From assembly GCF_028858725.1 (NCBI RefSeq), contig NC_084767.1, positions 2,779,501-2,843,500 on the forward strand: a stretch of DNA of 64,000 bases. The letters are read 5' to 3'. Source of the DNA: Colius striatus (Eukaryota; Chordata; Aves; Coliiformes; Coliidae). The position numbers were made by a program, and so were the translations under genes. The notes beneath the pieces are model-generated. The model saw only the letters and a list, made by a program, of their open reading frames with translations. It had not been told where the DNA came from and did no database searches. Numbering within the stretch: the first letter of the stretch is position 1; each line of letters begins with the position of its first letter. Positions 14,474 to 35,990 of the stretch are shown here, piece by piece.

Positions 14474-15850
14474 TCACTCGGTGGCGGGGCCAGCGCGGGA
14501 GCAGCACCGGGGCCGCCGGACGTTTTGCAGCAGAGCCCGAAAGACACTGGGCTGCCTCTTGGCCTCGCCTTTTTGGGGGGCCCCCTTGATGGAACCGGCA
14601 CGGGTGCTCTGAGGGGTCATCACCACCTGCCTCCCATGCTCCTCAATCTGCTTCTCCAGGTGCTTCTGGATGGCCATGCCTAGCACCTCCACCTCCATGG
14701 AGGCCCCGTACACCTCCCACGTCATCCCCTTCTCGTCCCAGCTCACCTCCCGGATGGGCTCCGGAACCTCTTCCACCACTGTCCCCTTCACGTGCACCTC
14801 AGGGTACGAGGCCTGCGGGGACTTGGCCACCGGTGTCATGGGCCCAGTGGCCACTGAGCGGGTCTCCACGGGCATGGACACCTGCATCTCCGCGTCCTTC
14901 TTGGAGGGCTCTGGGTGCAGGGGGGCAGCGGACCCCGGCTCTTTCTTGGGGAAGGTGAAGGCCCCCCCGCTCGGGGGGCTCATGGGGCTCAAGGCCACCG
15001 ACACCAGGGATGCTCGGCTGTCCACTTGCGTCCCTGTGTCCTGGGTCCCGGCGTCCTGCGGTGGGGTCACCTCGAAGGAGTACGACTCGCAGAGCAGCTT
15101 GGCTGTCCGGGGCTGCTGGCTGCTCCCAGCATCCACACCCCGGGCTGAGTTCCCCTTGGCTCTGTCCTGACCCAGTGCAATGGGGCTTGGCCCTGCCTTG
15201 CTTTGTCCCCCTCTCCCCTCAGGGCTGGTACTGGGGGGGTCTGCAGCATCCCCCTGGAGCTGCTTGAGAGCCTCACCGCCTCTCAGCTGGGGCACAGCAC
15301 CCAGGGATGTCCCTGTGCCACCCTGAAGCTGCTCTTGGCTTGGAAGTTCAGCCGCTCTGACGTTCGTGGTGGGCTCCACAAATGCCACGTGTTTGGCAGG
15401 AGCTGGCGCGCTCCCCATGTCCTTGCTGGGTGCCTTGAGGCAGGGCTCGGGTAGCGGGGGCACAGGGGCTGTGGTCTCCTTCTGGGTGCTGGGGAGCCCC
15501 ACCCCCGTAGGACCACAGGCAGGAGCAGCATCACTCGGTCCCCCACAGCTCCCTGTCTCTGCTGCCACACTTGGCTCCACAACAGTGTCCGGGAGAAGCG
15601 TGCCAGGAGCCAGTCCTGTCGGTGACGGCACCTTCTTCTCCGCTGCTGGGCCGGCCGTGGGGCCCTGGGCCTCTGGCTCAGCAGCGCAGCAGGTCCTCAT
15701 GGCACGGCCTTCCACTGCGCAGCCAGAGCCAGGTAGGCACTTGCCCACCACTGGGCAGCCAGGGGAGCTGGCGCTGGGCTCGCAGGCGTCCTCAGCTCCG
15801 GCTTGGTGGCTCAGCAGCTGCAGCCCCTCGGGCTCCTTAGCACTGCCCAT
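14474..15850 (-). CDS. GPRIN1: G protein-regulated inducer of neurite outgrowth 1
   Basis: A membrane-anchored effector of activated Gi/o/z alpha subunits that promotes neurite growth. The whole protein lies in one exon: 458 residues from the ATG at 15850. That start is chosen because [13 protein letters not shown] matches the start of mammalian GPRIN1, and because a splice acceptor for the minus strand lies 40 bases upstream (exon begins at 15890). The C-terminal third is strongly conserved: [28 protein letters not shown], then [39 protein letters not shown] and a tail [14 protein letters not shown]. The CC pair is the known kind of palmitoylation anchor. Human GPRIN1 is about 1,008 residues, so this protein is under half that length. 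The missing part corresponds to the long, repetitive, poorly conserved middle. The next gene leftward (CDHR2) converges on it. Confidence 0.93.
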
Positions 15851-16090
15851 GCCTGGGAAACGCTTCTCCCATGCTAGTCCCGCCGCAGGTCTGCAAGAGA
15901 GGATGGGAGTACTGAGGGAGGAGCAGCATACAGACCCCCAGCCTTCCCCCATCACCAACCATTTTCCTCCATGCCACCCGTGACAACAGGTTGGGCAGCT
16001 GCCTGCAGCACCCATTGGCCTGGCACAACCTGCAGGGCAGCACTTGGTGCCCGGCCCCACGGTAAGGGAGGAGCAGTGTCGGGCACCTAC

Positions 16091-16206
16091 CGTACAAGGC
16101 AGCCTTCCCCCGGCACGGCCAGACCGGGAGCAGGATCTGGGTGCTGCTGCAGCTGCCGGAGTGGGGAGACGTGGAGCAGGAGCAGGGGGACGTGGCGCAG
16201 GCACCC
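16091..16206 (-). other. GPRIN1: Candidate 5' untranslated exon of GPRIN1
   Basis: On the minus strand a pyrimidine-rich acceptor ending in CTGCAG precedes 16206, and a donor CTTGTACG then GTAGGTG ends the exon at 16091. Together with the acceptor before the coding exon at 15890, this makes a plausible middle leader exon. It may be skipped. Confidence 0.35.
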
Positions 16207-16959
16207 CTGCAGAGAGAGAGCCCGCTGGAGCATGCCCTGGGCACCGGGTTGACAGCCTCAGGGACTCAATACCCTCCCGTCTGCCAGGGCGGAGCTGGGT
16301 GCAGTGTGGGGTGAGAGGAAAACGGGCCTGGTGGCTATGAGGGGCTACAGAGAGGGGTACAGGGCAGCCCAAACCCTTCCTGCTGCTCACGGGGACCAGT
16401 GTCTCCCAGAGCTGTGAGCCAAATGTGTGCCCCAGCTACGGGAAACCGCCAGCTCAGCACCTACAACCGCTGTTGAGGCTGCTCCGAGCTCCCAGACGTG
16501 CAAGCACAGCAGGGAGACACAGGTTGGTGTCATCCAACGACCCCAAACCATCCCCAGCCCCCGGGGCAGCCCTGGAGCAGGAGCATGGCAGGAAACCCCG
16601 AGCCCTCCACAGGGCTCAGCCCTCCGAGGCCGGGAGCACACACTGCGTCCCGCAGCCGAGGGGGCACCACACGCCTCCGGCCACGGCCACTCGCGGGTCC
16701 CGGACAGGGTAAAGCCGAGCAGACACGGCAGGAGCCCAGCAAGTCCACGCCAAGGGACGCGGCAGGAGCAGGGACCGGGCTGGCCCCGCCGCCCCCGCGG
16801 CCGCCCGGCACCGCAGACAACGACCCCCTCCATTCCCGTTCGTGTCTTCCCACGCAGCACCCCGTTCCCGGGGGGGCCGTGGCACCCCGCAGCACAACCC
16901 GCCTGTGCCGGGGCTGGACGCGCTGTCCCGCTCCCGCCGCTCCACGGAGGAGCCGCCGG

Positions 16960-20718: not shown

Positions 20719-21464
20719 CTGGAGGTGTCCTTCCCCTTGCACAGAGGCAGCGCTGCCTGAGAGGTGGCGTGGGGCTGGCAGGCCCAGCACAGCCACCAGC
20801 ACCTGCCCTGTGAAGGGGTGAGGGTCAGGGGAGAGCCAGTCCTATCCAGCCCTGCATGGAGGATGTTGGCCACGCTCACTCCCACCAGGGCTGGGGAGTG
20901 GGAGCCTGGGCAGGGGGCATCTGAGTTAACATGGAGGTAGTCAGGGTGTGTATGGTGGTACTGAGGAGGAGGCCATCCTGGGATGCATCCCACAGAAAGA
21001 CGAGGGAAGCTGAGGAGATGGCTTTGCTAACTCGAGATGCAGCCCAGCTGCTGACACCATAGCACAGGAGTAGTGTGGCTGGCAGCCACCCTTGTGTGCG
21101 CTGGGCTCATCCTACACACCATATACCTGCTGCCCTAAACACACCTCAAAGCAGCAACAGCCTGAGGGGTCCCAAACTCTTGTTGCCTTGCCCTTATCCC
21201 GAGCCTTTCACCATGGAGCAGCTGCACAGCTTGAGCTGCTCCCCACAACACCCGTGTCTGTGGCCATGGGATGGCCAGCTGGTAGGAGCCTGCTTCCCAT
21301 TCTGTGGCAATCTGGAGGAAACTGGTCCAGCTGAATGGCTGCTGATCACCCATTGAGACTAGATGCTGCTGCTTCAGAAGAGTCAAAGCCTTTTCCTACA
21401 GTGCCTCCATGTCATTTGTGGTAACAAGGCAGAGACTCTTCAGTTCTTCTCTCTCCTTTCCCAG
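20719..21464. other. Non-coding; expected upstream exons of the dehydrogenase relic not found
   Basis: I looked here for the N-terminal exons of glutamate dehydrogenase (the region before GIRYST) and could not recognise any. The 5' part of the relic is either gone or too diverged to see by eye. Confidence 0.4.
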
Positions 21465-24400
21465 GGGTTCGTTTCAGCAGCTCAATTGATGTCAATGATG
21501 TGAAAGCCCTGGCTGCATTAATGACATACAAATGCGCCGTAGTGGGTAAGTACAAGGGGAACATAAAGCACATGGGGATTTGGGCATGGGATGGGGCTGT
21601 GATACAGTGAGTCAGAAGAGCCTGTGAGATGCTTTGAAAATCAGCATTGCTTTAGAAGTGCAGGATGTTCCTCTGGGCACGGATGTGTGAGGGCAAGGCT
21701 TGCTGTGGCTGCAGAATACACCGCTGGCAGTCCGGGATGTTCCTGTTAGCTCAGGGAACATAAAGCATTGTGCTCCTCAAATGAAGGCACCATGCCTGGG
21801 TTGTCATGGATTCAGCTCTACCTGGTAGTGTTTGTGGCAGGTTGAGGATTCGGATCCAGGTCCTGTCCTACCTTCAGCTCCATTCCACAGAAGCTGTCTG
21901 GTGTGGGGCAGGGCTGGCCCCTTCCCTGGACTCAACAAGGTCATGATTGCCGTGGTCACCTCCTCCCCCCCGAGGGCAGGGGAGCTGGCAGAGAACATCT
22001 GTCTGCCTTCCTCGTCTGCCTTTTCCAGATGTTCCTTGGTGGGTGTGAGGATCAATCCCAGGAAACAGAGAGTTCCTTCCCGTCCTTCCCCCATCGACAG
22101 CCTATAAGTCATGCTCCATTTTCCCAGTCCTCCCTCTCGTGCCCATCACAGCGATGCATTCTGACAGGCTGGCGAGTGGGGGGATGTTTGTGGTGAGTAA
22201 CACTCACCCAGCGACTGTGAGAAGCAGCTTCTTGGGGCAGGGAGGAGGAGTAGTGAACTCTGGTTTATGGGTCAATGCATCTGGCCAGAGAAACACTGAA
22301 GGAGTCTGGAGTTGGGATGCTGATGCCGCTGCCTCCTATGCACATTAGCAAGGGGCTGGAAGGACAGGGAGCAAAGGCACCAGGAGTTTGCACATCTCTC
22401 TTTTTAATTTAGATCCAGCTGCTGTGAATTAACTCCCTGGAGACATCAGGGTTGTCCTGTGTGGGCAAAGCAGAGCAGGGCAGGGCAGGGCAAGGCAAGG
22501 CAGGGCAGGGCAGGGCAGGGCAGCTGCCTGATGCTGCACCATGGCTCCAGGATTTTTCTTGGGGCCTGTAGCAACAACTGTGTTTTGCTGTTCTTATAAA
22601 GGAACATGAGCTGGAGGAAATAACGAGGCGTTTTACTGTAGAAATGGCCAAGAAGAGATTTGTAGGTGAGCGTGGTGACTTGGGCATGGGATGGGGGCTC
22701 AGTACAGAAAAGCTTGTGACGTGCTCTAAAAGTCAGCAGTGCTGGGCAGGAGTAGAGGCAGCTGCTCATCACCATCAGCAGCACTCACTGTCCTGGGGCT
22801 CTGCTGTCCTTCACCCCTTGGCCCTGGCTACCCTGTGAATTAGGAGGGAGCCTTTTGTGGTGCTGAGCATGGCGGGGCTGGCCCGGGCTGCCTCTTGAGT
22901 TTAGTGGGTGCTGGTCACAAGGCAAAGACCTTCACATCCCCTCTTTACTTGAATGACTCTGTGAAAGGCAAGGCCTGAGGGAAGCAAGGGAGACGCTGGG
23001 GCATGGGCAGCACCATGCTTTGGCCAGGGAACTCCTTGGTGTGCCCAAGGACAGGACCAGCCTGTGGGAATCGCCTGGCTGTAACGTGCCATTGGTTGGA
23101 GCAGAGCAATCGATCTGCAAAGACATCATCTGACAGATTTTTCTACCCCTCCAGGGCCTGGGATCAATGTGATGGCCCCTGATGTCAGTACCAGGGAGCA
23201 GGAGACATCCTGGATAGCTCACACCTACATCCACACGCTAGGGTACTGGCTAAGCTCCTGCAGTGCTGCTTTGGAGCCCGGGATGCTGTGGGCTACGAGG
23301 GTTTGTGCCCAGAGGCCCATGCCACTGAGTCATTTCAGGTTTAGCTGAGGCTTAGAGGAAAGTCCTCTCTAGAGAACGTGCACCAGATGAGATCTTAACC
23401 TTCCCTCTCCCCATCCCAGTCTTGCAGGACATCAGTGCCCAGGCATGTGTGATGGGAAAGCCCATCTGCCAGGGAGGCACCCACGGGTGATGCTCTGCCA
23501 CGGGCCAGGAGAGAGTTACATCACCAATACAGACCTCATGGACTGCATCAGCCTCAGCCACGGCTTGCCCAGCAGGACCTTCCCACTGCAGGGGAGTGCT
23601 CAGCCCAGCCAGAGCTTTGAAAGGAAGAACACTTCCTCAGCACCTTTCCAGGAGAGCTTTCGGCCTCAGTTCCTGCAGAGCTGCCTGGACGTGTTCTCCT
23701 GCATCTCTCCTCACCCTGTGCAGCTGGCAAGGCCTCTGAGCTGTGTTTCAGACATGCCCTGTGCAAAGCAGTTTCTAAGAGCTGATCTCTTAGAGCCTGG
23801 AACCAGCAGCCCAGGGGTGCTGCACTGCCCACACCGCACAGGCATTCCCAAGGTTTCTCTGTAGCCATCCTGCCTCAAAATGCTCACAGGGTGGAAGCTG
23901 AGGCTGGATCTCACCTGTGGAGCAGGCAGAGCAGAGGGAGAGTGGGCAGGACACAGCGGACTTTGCCAGACTCGATGGAACGAGCCGACCCCAGTGACAA
24001 CTTCACATTTCTGCTCCCTCAAACTGGCTACAGCAAACCATGATGTTAGCTACAGCTTGTGGCTGCAGCCCCCATCTCTTCTGGGTGCTCTGTGGGTCTG
24101 GCCCACAGTGGTCTTGCCTTGCCCAGTGGCCTGAGAGCTCAGTGGGACCCTGAGGGTGCCTGTCCTACCTTTTCCCCTCTCCTCCCAGCCCAGGGCCTGC
24201 TCACAACCGCGGTGAGCTGCTTCCCCCTGCTGTAACTCCAGCAGCTCTTGCTCTCTGCCAGGCTCTGCTGTCCAGAGCCACTGATCAGACCTTTCCTATG
24301 GAGCCCACTGCTCTCTGCAAAGGAGAAAGAAATCAACTGGAAAGCGTGCAGCTGAAGTCCTGCCTCTCTTGGGGCAGAGGCTTTGCACCTGCTGCCCTGG

Positions 24401-26880
24401 AGTTGCTGCCCTCGGGAATTACTCTCCCTTTGCTCATCCCTTTCCTCTCCATCTTTCTGCTTCACTGATACAGCAGAGAGTGAGAAGGCTGAAGTCTTTG
24501 GCTGCTGTGTGTACAATTTTGCTGTGTTTAGGGGCTGTTTTTGTGGCCCCAGGAGCCAGTGTTGCTTTTAGGAGCGTGCATTTTGGGGCAGACAGTGTAA
24601 AATCGCCTGTTCTGGTGAGAAGAGCAGAGCGACGCCTGTGCTGGTGCCTTGGCAGCTGATCACACTCCCTCAGAGTGGGGTGCAGGAGGATTGTTCACAG
24701 TGTGCCTGGACGCTGCATGCTGCCCACCAAGGGATTGTTTCTCACTGGAGCTGGTTTTTTGTTGAGATGGGCTCTTAGAAACTGAACGGCACACTGTGCT
24801 TGGAACATCGCGTCCAGAGCTCTGAGGTGATAAAGACAGGCTGAGCCAGAAGCCCGTATCCTACGGGCTCTTGCTTTTCACAGCCTTCTGACTAACCAAG
24901 GAGATCTCTGTCCTGCCAGGTCCAAGTCTGCCTCCAGCCAAAACCTTCACCAAGAACTTCTAGATGAGGGGTTCCAGCTTGTGCTCCTCGGCTCAGGCTC
25001 CTGAGAGGTGGCTGTTACCAGAGCAGTGGGTCAGTTTTCCACGTTTGTCCCCTCTCCCCAGAGTGTCCCTGCTCTGTGTTGCTGCAGGGCTTTGGCAAAG
25101 TGAGACTGCACACCATCAAGTACCTGCACGGGTCTGGAGCCTGCTGAGTCTGTGTGTGGGAGGCAGACAGAGCCATTTACAGTCCCAGCAGGGTCCCAAG
25201 GAGCCTGAGGACACAGAGTAGGGGGCTGCCCCTTATCTCCTGCAGAGCCCAGCTCCAAGGGCAGTGCCCAGCGCTGCCAGGCTGGGCCCAGCACTCTCCT
25301 GCTCATTCCAGGGCCATGGCTGGCTTCCCAAAAGCAGAGCTGTGTGACGGCAGCATCCTGGGGAGGTCCTGCAACTTCCTTATCCCTGCTGCCATCGAGA
25401 AGCAGCTCACAAGGGAGAATGCACCTTGGGTACCAGCAAAGGTACAGACCTGGCTCCCAACAGGCTCTGCATCAGAGTGAGGGGTGGCAGCTGGGCCGAG
25501 CCTCTGCTTTTGGCACCAGGGAGGTATCACGTCACACACTGACAACTCACACGCTGAGCCAGAGGGACGGGGCCTGAGGCAGAGGTGGCAGGTCACATCA
25601 TTGAGGGGGAGAGGAAAGCCTGAGCCCCTCCCTTTGCTGGCAGAGAGCCATGATTGTTGGAGTGTCCTTGTCCAGCTCTTCTGCCATCTCCTGTCTTCCC
25701 TGCTGTACCAGATCTTCCCCCCAGGGCAGGGAAGATGATGCCCTCGAGGGTACTGCCTGTCACAGGGTGGACACTGAAGATAATCATAGGCAGCAGCTAA
25801 GAGCGAGCAAGGCTACACACACCAACTCTCTCCCTTCACTGTGAGCTCTAGAGACCAAAGGGACAGGGCATGCTGGGATCTGGGACTCTCACACAGCCCA
25901 GGTCTTTTGCAGCCTGAGCCTTTAAATCACTCTGAGAAGCACGAGGCCTGAGCTTTTGCCCATCCCAAACAGCTCTGGCAGGGAGGTGTGTGCCCAGAGC
26001 CCTGCCACCAGAAGTGGCTTGGTGGGGGGATCCCAGCCACAGGGAAAGCAGCCTGTCACGGGCTTCTGCTTTCATTTCTTCCACTCATCTCACCTCTGCC
26101 CCACTCATGCTCCCAGATCATTGCAGAAGAATGGCCCCACTACAGCAGCAGCACATGAGATACTCCTGCAAAGAAACATCCTGGTCATCCCAGTCCATCC
26201 ATCTCCAAGCACAGGGAGGGCTCAGGGCTCACAGGGCCCCATGGTGCTGTCAGCTGCACTGATGTGGATCCAGCTGGGCTCTGCCAGGCTCTGGGCTCAG
26301 GCAGGGCTGCTGGTGCTATCTCTGTCAGCCTGTTCACTGCCTTGCCCCCAGCTCCTAGGCACATCTCAGATGCTTGTTCTTCCCTTCTCAACCCTCATGG
26401 TTCTTGGCTGCAGCAACAATAGACCATGAGGTTCCTGACCAGTACCAGGGCGTTCTGTGGCTGCTGATGGGCCAAGATCGAGTCCTGCCACATCACTGAG
26501 GGTGTCAGAGCAGCTGCTGTCTGCCCAGCAGCAAGTACAGGGTTATGGCTCCAGGATTCATACATCCAGGAACCACAGGACTGTCTGTGAGGGCAGAGCT
26601 TGACAGTGTGGGGAGAGACCCAAGGCAGGGGAGCAGAGATTCCCAGATGGGTCATGGGTCTCGGGGCCACCCTAAGCAGGACCACTGTCTTGCACCCAGC
26701 AGAGGGGTTGGTTTTGATACATAGGTTTGGGAGGCCAACCTTTATCCTCTTCCACAAAGGATTCACTTGTTCTGCCCCTCAGGGTGCCCTCAGAGAAGGA
26801 CATTATGTATTTGGGACTGACCTACACCACGGAGCAGTCAGCCAAAGTACCTACAAGGGCTCCTGCTCTCAGGCCCCTTG
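21465..26880 (+). pseudogene. Decayed intron-containing glutamate dehydrogenase (GLUD) paralogue
   Basis: Nine exon remnants match vertebrate GLUD1 in order: 21465-21545 (VKALAALMTYKCAVV), 22029-22068 (DVP...VRINPR), 22602-22665 (ELEEITRRFTVEMAKK), 23155-~23249 ([20 protein letters not shown]), 23428-23486 (DISAQACVMGKPICQGGTHG), 25088-~25219 (GFGKVRLHTIKYLHG), 25312-25441 (GSILGRSCNFLIPAAIEKQL), 26117-26193 (IIAE...NILVIP) and 26783-~26880 (SEKDIMYLGLTYTTEQSA). Several introns survive with GT-AG ends and consistent phase, as in GTG G / AT GTT at the first junction, so it is not a retrocopy. It is dead. A 13-base deletion in the second remnant removes the GGAKAG segment with the catalytic lysine and shifts the frame. 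The 25088, 26117 and 26783 exons carry frameshifts. Several donors are lost, and N-terminal, middle and C-terminal exons are unrecognisable. Conservation is roughly two-thirds in the best exon, so the split from GLUD1 is ancient. It lies between GPRIN1 and SNCB and points toward SNCB. Confidence 0.9.
22475..22523. repeat. (GGCAG/GGCAA)n microsatellite
   Basis: About ten 5-base units, mostly GGGCA with two AAGGC variants, in an intron of the dehydrogenase relic. Confidence 0.85.
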
Positions 26881-29105: not shown

Positions 29106-32345
<3,240 letters not shown>

Positions 32346-32960: not shown

Positions 32961-34441
32961 ATGGCTACTGGGGAGCAGGTGAGTGATCTCTGTGTGAGCT
33001 GTGGGTGGCTGCAGAGCCTCGGCAGCCCTTCCATCCTCTCAGGACTTCAGGCTCCCTGTCTGTGGTGTGAGGGAGGCTGAGGGTGCTGCAGGCTCCCTGC
33101 TGGGGTGGCCGTGGGGCTCCTCAGGGCTGTTCCTCCTTCCCCAGCGGAGGCAAGAGGAGCGGCGGCGGCAGAAGGCTCAGCAGCAAGAGCTGCTCCTGGC
33201 AGAGAGCCTGGGCAAGCATCCCCTGCAGAACAGGTATGGGGGGCCAGGCCATGGGCAGACTCTCCCAGTGTTGGGAGGGGGATGCTGGGGCTGGAAGGGG
33301 GCTCCAGCATGGCTGAAGATCCCCCATCTTCCCTCCCCAGATGGGCACTGTGGTTCTTCAAGAATGACAAGAGCAAGATGTGGCAGGCAAACCTGCGCCT
33401 CGTCACCAAGTTCAGCACTGTGGAGGACTTCTGGGCGTGAGTGTCCCGTGGGTGGGCAACGTGTCCCCTCCAGAGAGGTTTCACTGCAGGGGAGTATAAG
33501 GCCAGAGGAGGGTGCTGGGGGTCCCTGAGGCATCTCTTCTCACCTGCTTGTGTGTCTTATTTCCCCCTGGTGCAGGCTGTACAGCCACATCCAGCTTGCC
33601 AGCAAGCTCACATCTGGCTGTGACTACTCCCTCTTCAAGGTTTGTCACCCCTTCCACAGCATATCCCCCCTCAGAGCCCTCTACAGCACCCACCATTATG
33701 GGGGCATGCTGGGTGTTGATGGGGCTGGCAGGGTGCTCTGGCCATAGAATGGGAGGGCAAGCCTGACTGGTTGCCTGGAGCCCCTTGAGCTGGCTCTGTC
33801 AGGGTGCTCAGTGCCCCTGACCATCCCCTTGCCTGGCCCTAGGATGGCATCGAGCCCATGTGGGAGGACAGCCAGAACAAGCGTGGCGGGCGCTGGCTCA
33901 TCACCCTGGCCAAGCAGCAGCGGCACACCGAGCTGGACCGGTTCTGGCTGGAGACGGTGAGTGTGGCCCCGCTCAGGCTGCCCCACAGGCTCCGTCCCTG
34001 TGCAGCTGCCAAGCCCTGGCAGGGACTATCCTGGGCTCCTCTTCCCCCTCCAACAGCTGCTGTGCCTCATTGGAGAGATGTTTGACGAGTACAGCAACGA
34101 GGTGTGTGGGGCCGTCATCAACATCCGCGCCAAGGGGGACAAGATTGCCATCTGGACTCGGGAAGCAGAGAACCGGGAAGGAGTCACCCACATCGGGTAA
34201 CGTGGGGTCTGGGGCGGGCAGGGGGGATGTGTGAGGGCAGCTTCGTGGGGAATGGGATCCCTGGGCATGGAGCCAGAGGGGGAGGAGCAGCTCTGCCCTG
34301 TTCATGCAGCCCCTTCTCTCCTCCAGGCGCATCTACAAGGAGCACCTGGGTCTGTCGCAGAAGGTGGCCATCGGGTACCAAGCCCACGCAGACACGGCCA
34401 CCAAGAGCGGCTCCCTCGCCAAGACCAAGTTTGTGGTGTGA
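32961..34441 (+). CDS. EIF4E1B: Eukaryotic translation initiation factor 4E family member 1B (oocyte eIF4E), 7 exons
   Basis: A germline cap-binding protein. In vertebrate oocytes it binds m7G caps weakly and 4E-T/CPEB complexes well, holding maternal mRNAs silent. Exons: 32961-32978, 33145-33233, 33341-33436, 33576-33639, 33843-33956, 34057-34196, 34327-34441. They sum to 636 bases (211 residues). Diagnostic for 1B are HPLQNRWALWFFKND near residue 33, LYSHIQLASKLTSGCDYSLF, and the end AHADTATKSGSLAKTKFVV, all closer to mammalian EIF4E1B than to EIF4E. The cap-sandwich tryptophans are present in HPLQNRW and EPMWED, and the VEDFWALYSHI region for 4E-binding partners is intact. The short N-terminus is arginine- and glutamine-rich (RRQEERRRQKAQQQ), unlike EIF4E. 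I saw no AATAAA soon after the stop. Confidence 0.94.
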
Positions 34442-35765: not shown

Positions 35766-35990
35766 TCATAGAATCACAGAAGGATGTGGGGTGGAAGGGA
35801 CTTTAAACATCATCTAGTCCCAACTCCCCAGCCATGGGCAGGGACACCTTCCACTAGAGCAGGTTCCTCAACTCCCCATTCAGCTTGGCCTTGAGCCCTG
35901 CAAGGGAGGGGGCATCCACAACCCGTCCCAATGCCTCGCCACCCTCCCAGGGCACAACCCGTTCAGTGCATCTCATCTACATCTCCGTTC
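35766..35990 (-). mobile_element. CR1 LINE 3' tail
   Basis: CATAGAATCACAGAAGG followed by GGAAGGGACTTTAAACATCA, then GCCATGGGCAGGGACACCTT and CCACTAGAGCAGGTTCCTCA, is the well-known 3' end of avian CR1 elements read backwards. The element lies on the minus strand with its 3' end at about 35766. It is a short 5'-truncated, moderately diverged copy with no coding part. Confidence 0.9.

Follow-up and report, generated by a model that had tools for sequence, protein, structure and literature searches.

The stretch analysed here, a 64-kb window of the Colius striatus genome (contig C11 of genome G000, 1.21 Gb; positions 2779501-2843500), carries GPRIN1, SNCB and, between them, the remains of a glutamate dehydrogenase (GDH) gene of the GLUD family. 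Six-frame tblastn searches of the window with bird GLUD1 proteins and with proteins of a second sauropsid GLUD family, for which we use the working name GLUD-B, recovered remnants of exons 1, 2, 4, 5, 6, 7, 8, 9 and 12, numbered after the intact 13-exon GLUD1 of the same genome, all on the + strand and in GLUD order over 6.1 kb (20719-26846; Table 1). When the eagle GLUD-B protein P0161 was the query, nine of nine matches at E <= 0.01 in the 64 kb fell on the + strand between 20.7 and 26.9 kb and were collinear; 20 shuffled versions of the query gave one match in total and the reversed query gave none. All seven matches of the stork GLUD1 P0046 lay inside the relic span (two matches from 20 shuffles, none from the reversed query). 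The turtle protein P0145 was noisier, with 8 of 12 matches inside, three from 20 shuffles and seven from the reversed query, a behaviour that may reflect its low-complexity N-terminus. The shuffled and reversed controls rule out chance matches as the origin of the signal, and nine collinear matches over several domains identify the relic as a GLUD homolog. A sequence-only reading of the same DNA had listed nine GLUD exon remnants in order and in one orientation, which these searches bear out; its range, starting at 21465, holds the other remnants, with that of exon 1 lying upstream of it.

Table 1 Exon remnants of the GLUD relic and neighbouring features, in window positions.
Feature	Position	Strand	Evidence
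Exon 1, 3' part only (GLUD1 residues 112-144)	20719..20817	+	tblastn 9.6e-5 with GLUD1, 4e-10 with bird GLUD-B P0123
Exon 2 (residues 145-171)	21464..21544	+	tblastn 3.5e-15 with P0161; Pfam ELFV_dehydrog_N 5.4e-7
Exon 4 (residues 191-211), donor GTGAGC intact	22602..22664	+	tblastn 4.1e-6
Exon 5 (residues 212-242), expected donor without GT	23154..23246	+	tblastn 1.3e-10
Exon 6 (residues 244-303), two frames, 23428-23508 and 23511-23594	23428..23594	+	tblastn 7.4e-15 with P0161, for the pair
Exon 7, 3' limit approximate	25085..25165	+	part of a 3.4e-25 match to P0161
Exon 8 (residues 356-395), donor GTACAG intact, 5' limit approximate	25322..25441	+	part of the 3.4e-25 match to P0161
Exon 9 (to residue 422)	26118..26192	+	tblastn 2.4e-6 for 26130-26192; 26118-26129 by eye
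Exon 12 (residues 497-515)	26790..26846	+	tblastn 0.001 with P0161, 8e-4 with P0123
GPRIN1, large open frame	14477..16435	-	Pfam GRIN_C 9.1e-44
SNCB coding span, first to last codon including introns	29106..32048	-	read from sequence
EIF4E-family gene adjoining SNCB, coding span by eye	32961..34441	+	Pfam IF4E 2.8e-11, one exon

Wherever they could be read, the limits of the remnants coincided with the exon limits of the bird's own GLUD1 within 1-2 residues. The donor GT survives after exons 1 (GTGAGG), 2 (GTAAGT, with the acceptor AG also intact), 4 and 8, and is gone after exon 5. In-frame TGA stops were found in exon 1 (20758-20760), exon 6 (23488-23490) and exon 7 (25145-25147); the frame changes near 23508 within exon 6 and again within exon 9, where IIAE is read in one frame and is followed, after the change, by NGPTTAAAHEILLQRNILVIP. 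Exons 3, 10, 11 and 13 were not found at the locus in the GLUD1 and GLUD-B searches, and tblastn returned no exon 3 remnant in intron 2. The exon 8 region was also matched in the search of the whole genome (G000:C11:2804813-2804953), and its Pfam match to the catalytic domain reached 14.8 bits, below the curated cut-off of 23.4. Intron 2 of the relic also contains a short tandem run of GCAGG-type units, seen by eye at 22466-22523.

The stops, the frame changes, the lost exon 5 donor and the four missing exons leave the relic broken beyond function and, taken with its introns and splice signals, they make it neither a retrocopy nor a working gene. A GLUD-B query against the bird's own genome listed 12 matches, seven at GLUD1 (contig C10) and five at the relic (C11), with no further GLUD or GLUD-B copy among the matches listed, these counts being lower bounds in an assembly that may be incomplete. 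Disabling lesions thus coexist with open orthologs in other birds and with no working copy listed in the genome, as in unitary pseudogenes, and the spread of the exons over 6.1 kb is not that of an intronless, processed pseudogene. The relic is therefore a dead, intron-containing unitary pseudogene of a second vertebrate glutamate dehydrogenase, GLUD-B. The sequence-only reading had called it a dying second GLUD gene and an unprocessed copy; it is an unprocessed second GLUD, already dead rather than dying.

The GLUD-B family was found through the relic sequence set in the GLUD1 frame, and the list was extended by a profile of six such proteins. It comprises eleven bird records (P0123, P0126, P0129, P0130, P0161, P0164, P0166, P0169, P0174, P0175 and P0179, the cluster of P0123 alone holding 108 member sequences), six from turtles (P0145, P0155, P0156, P0158, P0167 and P0168), one from a crocodilian (P0195, Gavialis) and eleven from squamates (P0124, P0125, P0157, P0159, P0160, P0162, P0163 and P0170-P0173), with both lizards and snakes represented among the proteins with open frames. 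Source names of these records are GLUD1- or GLUD2-like, and the sauropsid entries called 'glutamate dehydrogenase 1, mitochondrial-like' (P0123, P0145 and others) are orthologs of the relic; the records that we used are largely open, whereas the relic is broken. Relic and eagle GLUD-B agreed at 196 of 254 residues (77.2%), against 150 of 254 (59.1%) for relic and stork GLUD1. At 67 sites where the bird GLUD-B consensus differs from that of tetrapod GLUD1, the relic sides with GLUD-B at 49 and with GLUD1 at 2, and has another residue at the remaining 16.

The trees comprise 23 of the 29 GLUD-B records together with 22 rows of GLUD1 and 2 outgroups, a selection that we made from 207 retrieved proteins. 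The relic grouped among bird GLUD-B with a Shimodaira-Hasegawa-like approximate likelihood ratio test (SH-aLRT) value of 100. Forcing it into bird GLUD1 cost 77 log-likelihood units and was rejected by the approximately unbiased (AU) test (p-AU 2.8e-45), as was joining it to all GLUD1 (p-AU 3.9e-10). The sequence-only reading had named a place inside bird GLUD1 as the result that would overturn it, and no such tree was obtained. The nearest row was Aquila, with a support of only 85, and the position of the relic among birds is unsure because its end branch is long (0.62). Together, these comparisons of sequences show the relic to be orthologous to the GLUD-B of other sauropsids and not to GLUD1. 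Between the relic and the bird's own GLUD1, over 765 aligned bases (254 codons counted, one stop codon dropped), the proportion of synonymous differences (pS) was 0.76 (95% 0.67-0.86, saturated) and the nonsynonymous distance (dN) 0.29; differences at codon positions 1, 2 and 3 numbered 75, 53 and 146 of 255. Such a pattern reads as that of a long separate history under selection followed by decay. GLUD1 itself, beside SNCG, shares with the relic the fold family, the exon limits and the tail-to-tail placement next to a synuclein gene, GLUD-B differing as a separate and faster-evolving line at a saturated synonymous distance.

In the careful tree of 47 rows, with the relic left out and no lamprey row, GLUD-B formed a clade (support 100/100) divided into a squamate branch (100/99) and one of turtles, crocodilian and birds (100/98). 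This branching mirrors that of the species, placing the gene in the sauropsid ancestor. All GLUD1 rows, shark included, formed the sister group of GLUD-B (90/95), which sits on a long stem. Forcing GLUD-B into the GLUD1 of sauropsids, amniotes, tetrapods or bony vertebrates gave p-AU values of 0.0152, 0.0194, 0.0079 and 0.0152, respectively. The trees thus lend moderate support to a split of GLUD-B from GLUD1 that would precede the divergence of the jawed-vertebrate groups sampled.

The surroundings of the two genes repeat each other. The bird's own GLUD1 lies on C10 (8333188-8360584, + strand), and a search of the whole genome located a synuclein first exon 41 kb downstream of it on the opposite strand (C10 8401585-8401704, - strand), tail to tail; the relic and SNCB, whose first exon lies at G000:C11:2811429-2811548 on the - strand, have the same layout with about 2.3 kb between them. 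From known neighbours, the C10 synuclein is probably SNCG and a third synuclein, on C4, probably SNCA. GLUD1 and the relic thus occupy, within one genome, the matching places of a paralogon that are expected of early vertebrate (two-round, 2R) ohnologs. The sequence-only reading had already placed GPRIN1, the relic and SNCB together, with relic and SNCB tail to tail as in GLUD1 and SNCG, and both arrangements were recovered here. An ancestral block SNC-GLUD-SHLD-GPRIN is described in the part of Marin 2023 available to us (PMC10451939). Such a block predicts a GLUD relic between SNCB and GPRIN1, and the relic occupies precisely this GLUD place; near SNCB, the available part of that paper reports only isolated block genes and names no GLUD relic. 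Orthology, tail-to-tail layout, tree root and published block, taken together, make a genome-duplication ohnolog the most likely identity of the relic, and we consider it very probable that it is the SNCB-side counterpart of GLUD1 in the synuclein paralogon. One early vertebrate genome duplication would then have separated GLUD-B from GLUD1, the GLUD-B gene would have made a mitochondrial GDH-type protein and, once no longer needed in the ancestry of this bird, it would have decayed neutrally since; the relic now most likely does nothing. The sequence-only reading had also named the absence of any GLUD sequence at GPRIN1-SNCB in all other vertebrates as a result that would count against an ohnolog; the evidence on this point is indirect, namely a second GLUD with open reading frames in birds, turtles, a crocodilian, lizards and snakes. 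In other birds, the longest contigs listed for GLUD-B and GLUD1 measured 21.6 and 40.7 Mb in Indicator, 22.5 and 43.6 Mb in Bubo, and 20.0 and 11.1 Mb in Calidris, and the figures from Indicator and Bubo suggest that the two genes likely lie on separate chromosomes in these two birds.

Several points weigh against the ohnolog interpretation. The GLUD1 clade has a bootstrap of only 90 and, contrary to the species tree, unites its shark and frog rows with those of fishes. The GLUD-B stem is long (0.37), and the same root would also result from attraction of this long branch to the outgroup; the relic, in turn, combines its long branch with only 46% of columns filled. The adjacency of GLUD-B to SNCB was read in the present genome only, and among the 120 best matches listed, not every one of which was placed in a tree, we recognised no mammalian, amphibian or fish GLUD-B. 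These same observations, namely the moderate support of the deep root and the recognition of GLUD-B in sauropsids only among the matches listed, are what an old single-gene or segmental duplication would explain, with GLUD-B standing beside SNCB by chance or through duplication of a block. We regard this origin as unlikely, given that the placement between GPRIN and synuclein genes, tail to tail, repeats both the layout of GLUD1 and SNCG and the block in the available part of PMC10451939, and that origins within sauropsids, amniotes, tetrapods or bony vertebrates were rejected (p-AU 0.008-0.019). A recent segmental duplicate of bird GLUD1, since decayed, would account for the retained introns and GLUD order, and is refuted by the AU test, by the diagnostic sites and by the divergence from GLUD1 given above, leaving it a very small probability. 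A retrocopy, for which nothing was found in favour, is refuted by the introns, with nine exons over 6.1 kb and splice signals at GLUD exon limits, and its probability is close to nil. Preferring the genome-duplication ohnolog, we thus find the sequence-only reading right in kind. Of its 'lost ohnolog', the second word most likely holds, and the first does not hold for birds as a group, in which open GLUD-B genes occur; the evidence supports describing the relic instead as the dead representative of a gene still carried by many sauropsids.

The open GLUD-B proteins of archelosaurs (turtles, crocodilians and birds) differ from GLUD1 at an active-site residue. The lysine of the PFGGAK motif of GLUD1 is position 183 of the 558-residue primate precursor, and we take it to be bovine Lys126, the catalytic lysine of the family (PROSITE PS00074). 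A review, in the part available, locates Lys183 of human GDH1 near the active site (PMC5192433), and the accessible part of an E. coli GDH engineering study names a lysine numbered 126 as the key catalytic residue (PMC8784811); by our own count the E. coli residue would be 128, and the numbering of that study could not be matched. Among the 207 proteins, the motif carries lysine in 184 and another residue in 14, and is unreadable in nine (P0043, P0092, P0121, P0161, P0164, P0166, P0167, P0169 and P0170). The 14 are all GLUD-B: 12 archelosaur proteins with methionine, that of duck with valine and the snake protein P0171 with glutamate. Archelosaur GLUD-B thus lacks the lysine in 13 of 13 readable records (methionine in 12, valine in one), five more being unreadable, and squamate GLUD-B keeps it in 9 of 10 readable records, from nine species. 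P0171 (Erythrolamprus reginae) reads GGSEAG at the motif and MTYT for MTYK, both lysines being changed, apparently a separate and independent loss of active-site residues. In the lysine column Strix shows K and Strigops shows Y, both stemming from intron read-through, and the state of the relic is unreadable, since exon 3, the carrier of the motif, was not found. Only this lysine and a conservative isoleucine-to-valine change are positions invariant in GLUD1, outgroups and squamate GLUD-B yet altered in at least 90% of archelosaur rows.

Archelosaur GLUD-B thus has a catalytic residue replaced, as pseudoenzymes do, the catalytic status of the residue being taken from the parts of PMC5192433 and PMC8784811 available to us and from general knowledge of the family. 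The other motifs are largely retained: 15 of 15 archelosaur rows keep the K of MTYK, the D of PAPD and the S of VTVS, 14 of 15 the N of LNAGG, and 12 of 15 the lysine of PCKGG, a second active-site lysine, the remaining three having E in gavial, F in Psilopogon (probably misread) and a gap. Side-necked and hidden-necked turtles agree at 525 of 581 residues (Emydura and Caretta, 90.4%) and 488 of 554 (Pelusios and Gopherus, 88.1%), an agreement from which the GLUD-B protein seems to have been retained after the lysine change. A role without normal turnover could follow, for instance as a non-catalytic subunit of GLUD1 hexamers.

An alternative, to which we give an even chance, is that archelosaur GLUD-B is an active enzyme with altered chemistry, or is slowly decaying everywhere, the lysine change marking relaxation and not a new role. 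Faster evolution agrees with this, the bird pairs compared being 88-91% identical in GLUD-B and 97.8% in GLUD1, as does the E in place of the PCKGG lysine in the relic and in gavial: exon 1 of the relic and P0195 read PCEGG, other GLUD rows with this exon mostly PCKGG. Also in its favour, exon 2 is followed by read-through into intron 2 in the models of Aquila (P0161), Strigops (P0164) and Strix (P0166), and the Grus japonensis model (P0169) passes directly from exon 2 to exon 5, anomalies that may reflect damage or poor modelling. Against the alternative stand the turtle agreement and the intact MTYK, PAPD and VTVS residues, and faulty models may account for the exon skipping, as exon 3 is present in Grus americana (P0179) and in the owls Bubo and Tyto, with methionine. 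Tentatively, and with slightly less confidence than an even chance would warrant, we propose that archelosaur GLUD-B is a conserved pseudo-GDH: a lysine-to-methionine change at the catalytic site, near the archelosaur base, would have ended normal turnover, selection would have kept the protein, perhaps as a regulatory subunit of GLUD1 hexamers, and some birds, including the one with the relic, would later have lost it, the lysine-to-glutamate change of P0171 being apparently independent. As a separate observation, broken or badly modelled GLUD-B copies (P0161, P0164, P0166 and P0169) are stored in databases as coding genes.

To our knowledge, a single glutamate dehydrogenase gene is the usual assumption for land vertebrates, apes excepted. 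We recognised no description of a second sauropsid GLUD, or of its lysine change, in the titles and abstracts of the literature searched, in keeping with the sequence-only reading, which knew of no account of the locus. Two studies of avian and reptilian gene loss (PMC4290089, PMC5901865) contain neither 'GLUD' nor 'glutamate dehydrogenase' in their main texts, the available portions of PMC12018205 and PMC5372004 hold nothing on the lysine, and PMC4962313 mentions only the GLUD2 of hominoids. The lysine replacement in archelosaur GLUD-B is thus apparently new. Hominoid GLUD2 resembles GLUD-B in being a second GLUD gene of some vertebrates and differs in being a retrocopy of GLUD1, as the sequence-only reading had it and as the part of PMC11050691 available to us states for primates; in our tree it groups with mammalian GLUD1. 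If the present interpretation is correct, a second GLUD goes back at least to the sauropsid ancestor, its active-site lysine being replaced in archelosaurs, and glutamate and ammonia metabolism in these animals would have to be reread; archelosaur GLUD-B would also offer a natural test of a GDH subunit without catalysis. By filling the SNCB-side GLUD place of the paralogon, the relic supports the account of synucleins by whole-genome duplication given in the available part of PMC10451939.

Among the remaining features of the window, a Pfam scan of the 41-residue first exon of SNCB returned no family. The EIF4E-family gene adjoining SNCB is presumably EIF4E1B. Upstream of the relic lies a cadherin exon on the + strand (Pfam 1.4e-8), part of a gene that we take to be CDHR2, and the segment at about 35770-35990 looks like the end of a putative bird CR1 retroelement.

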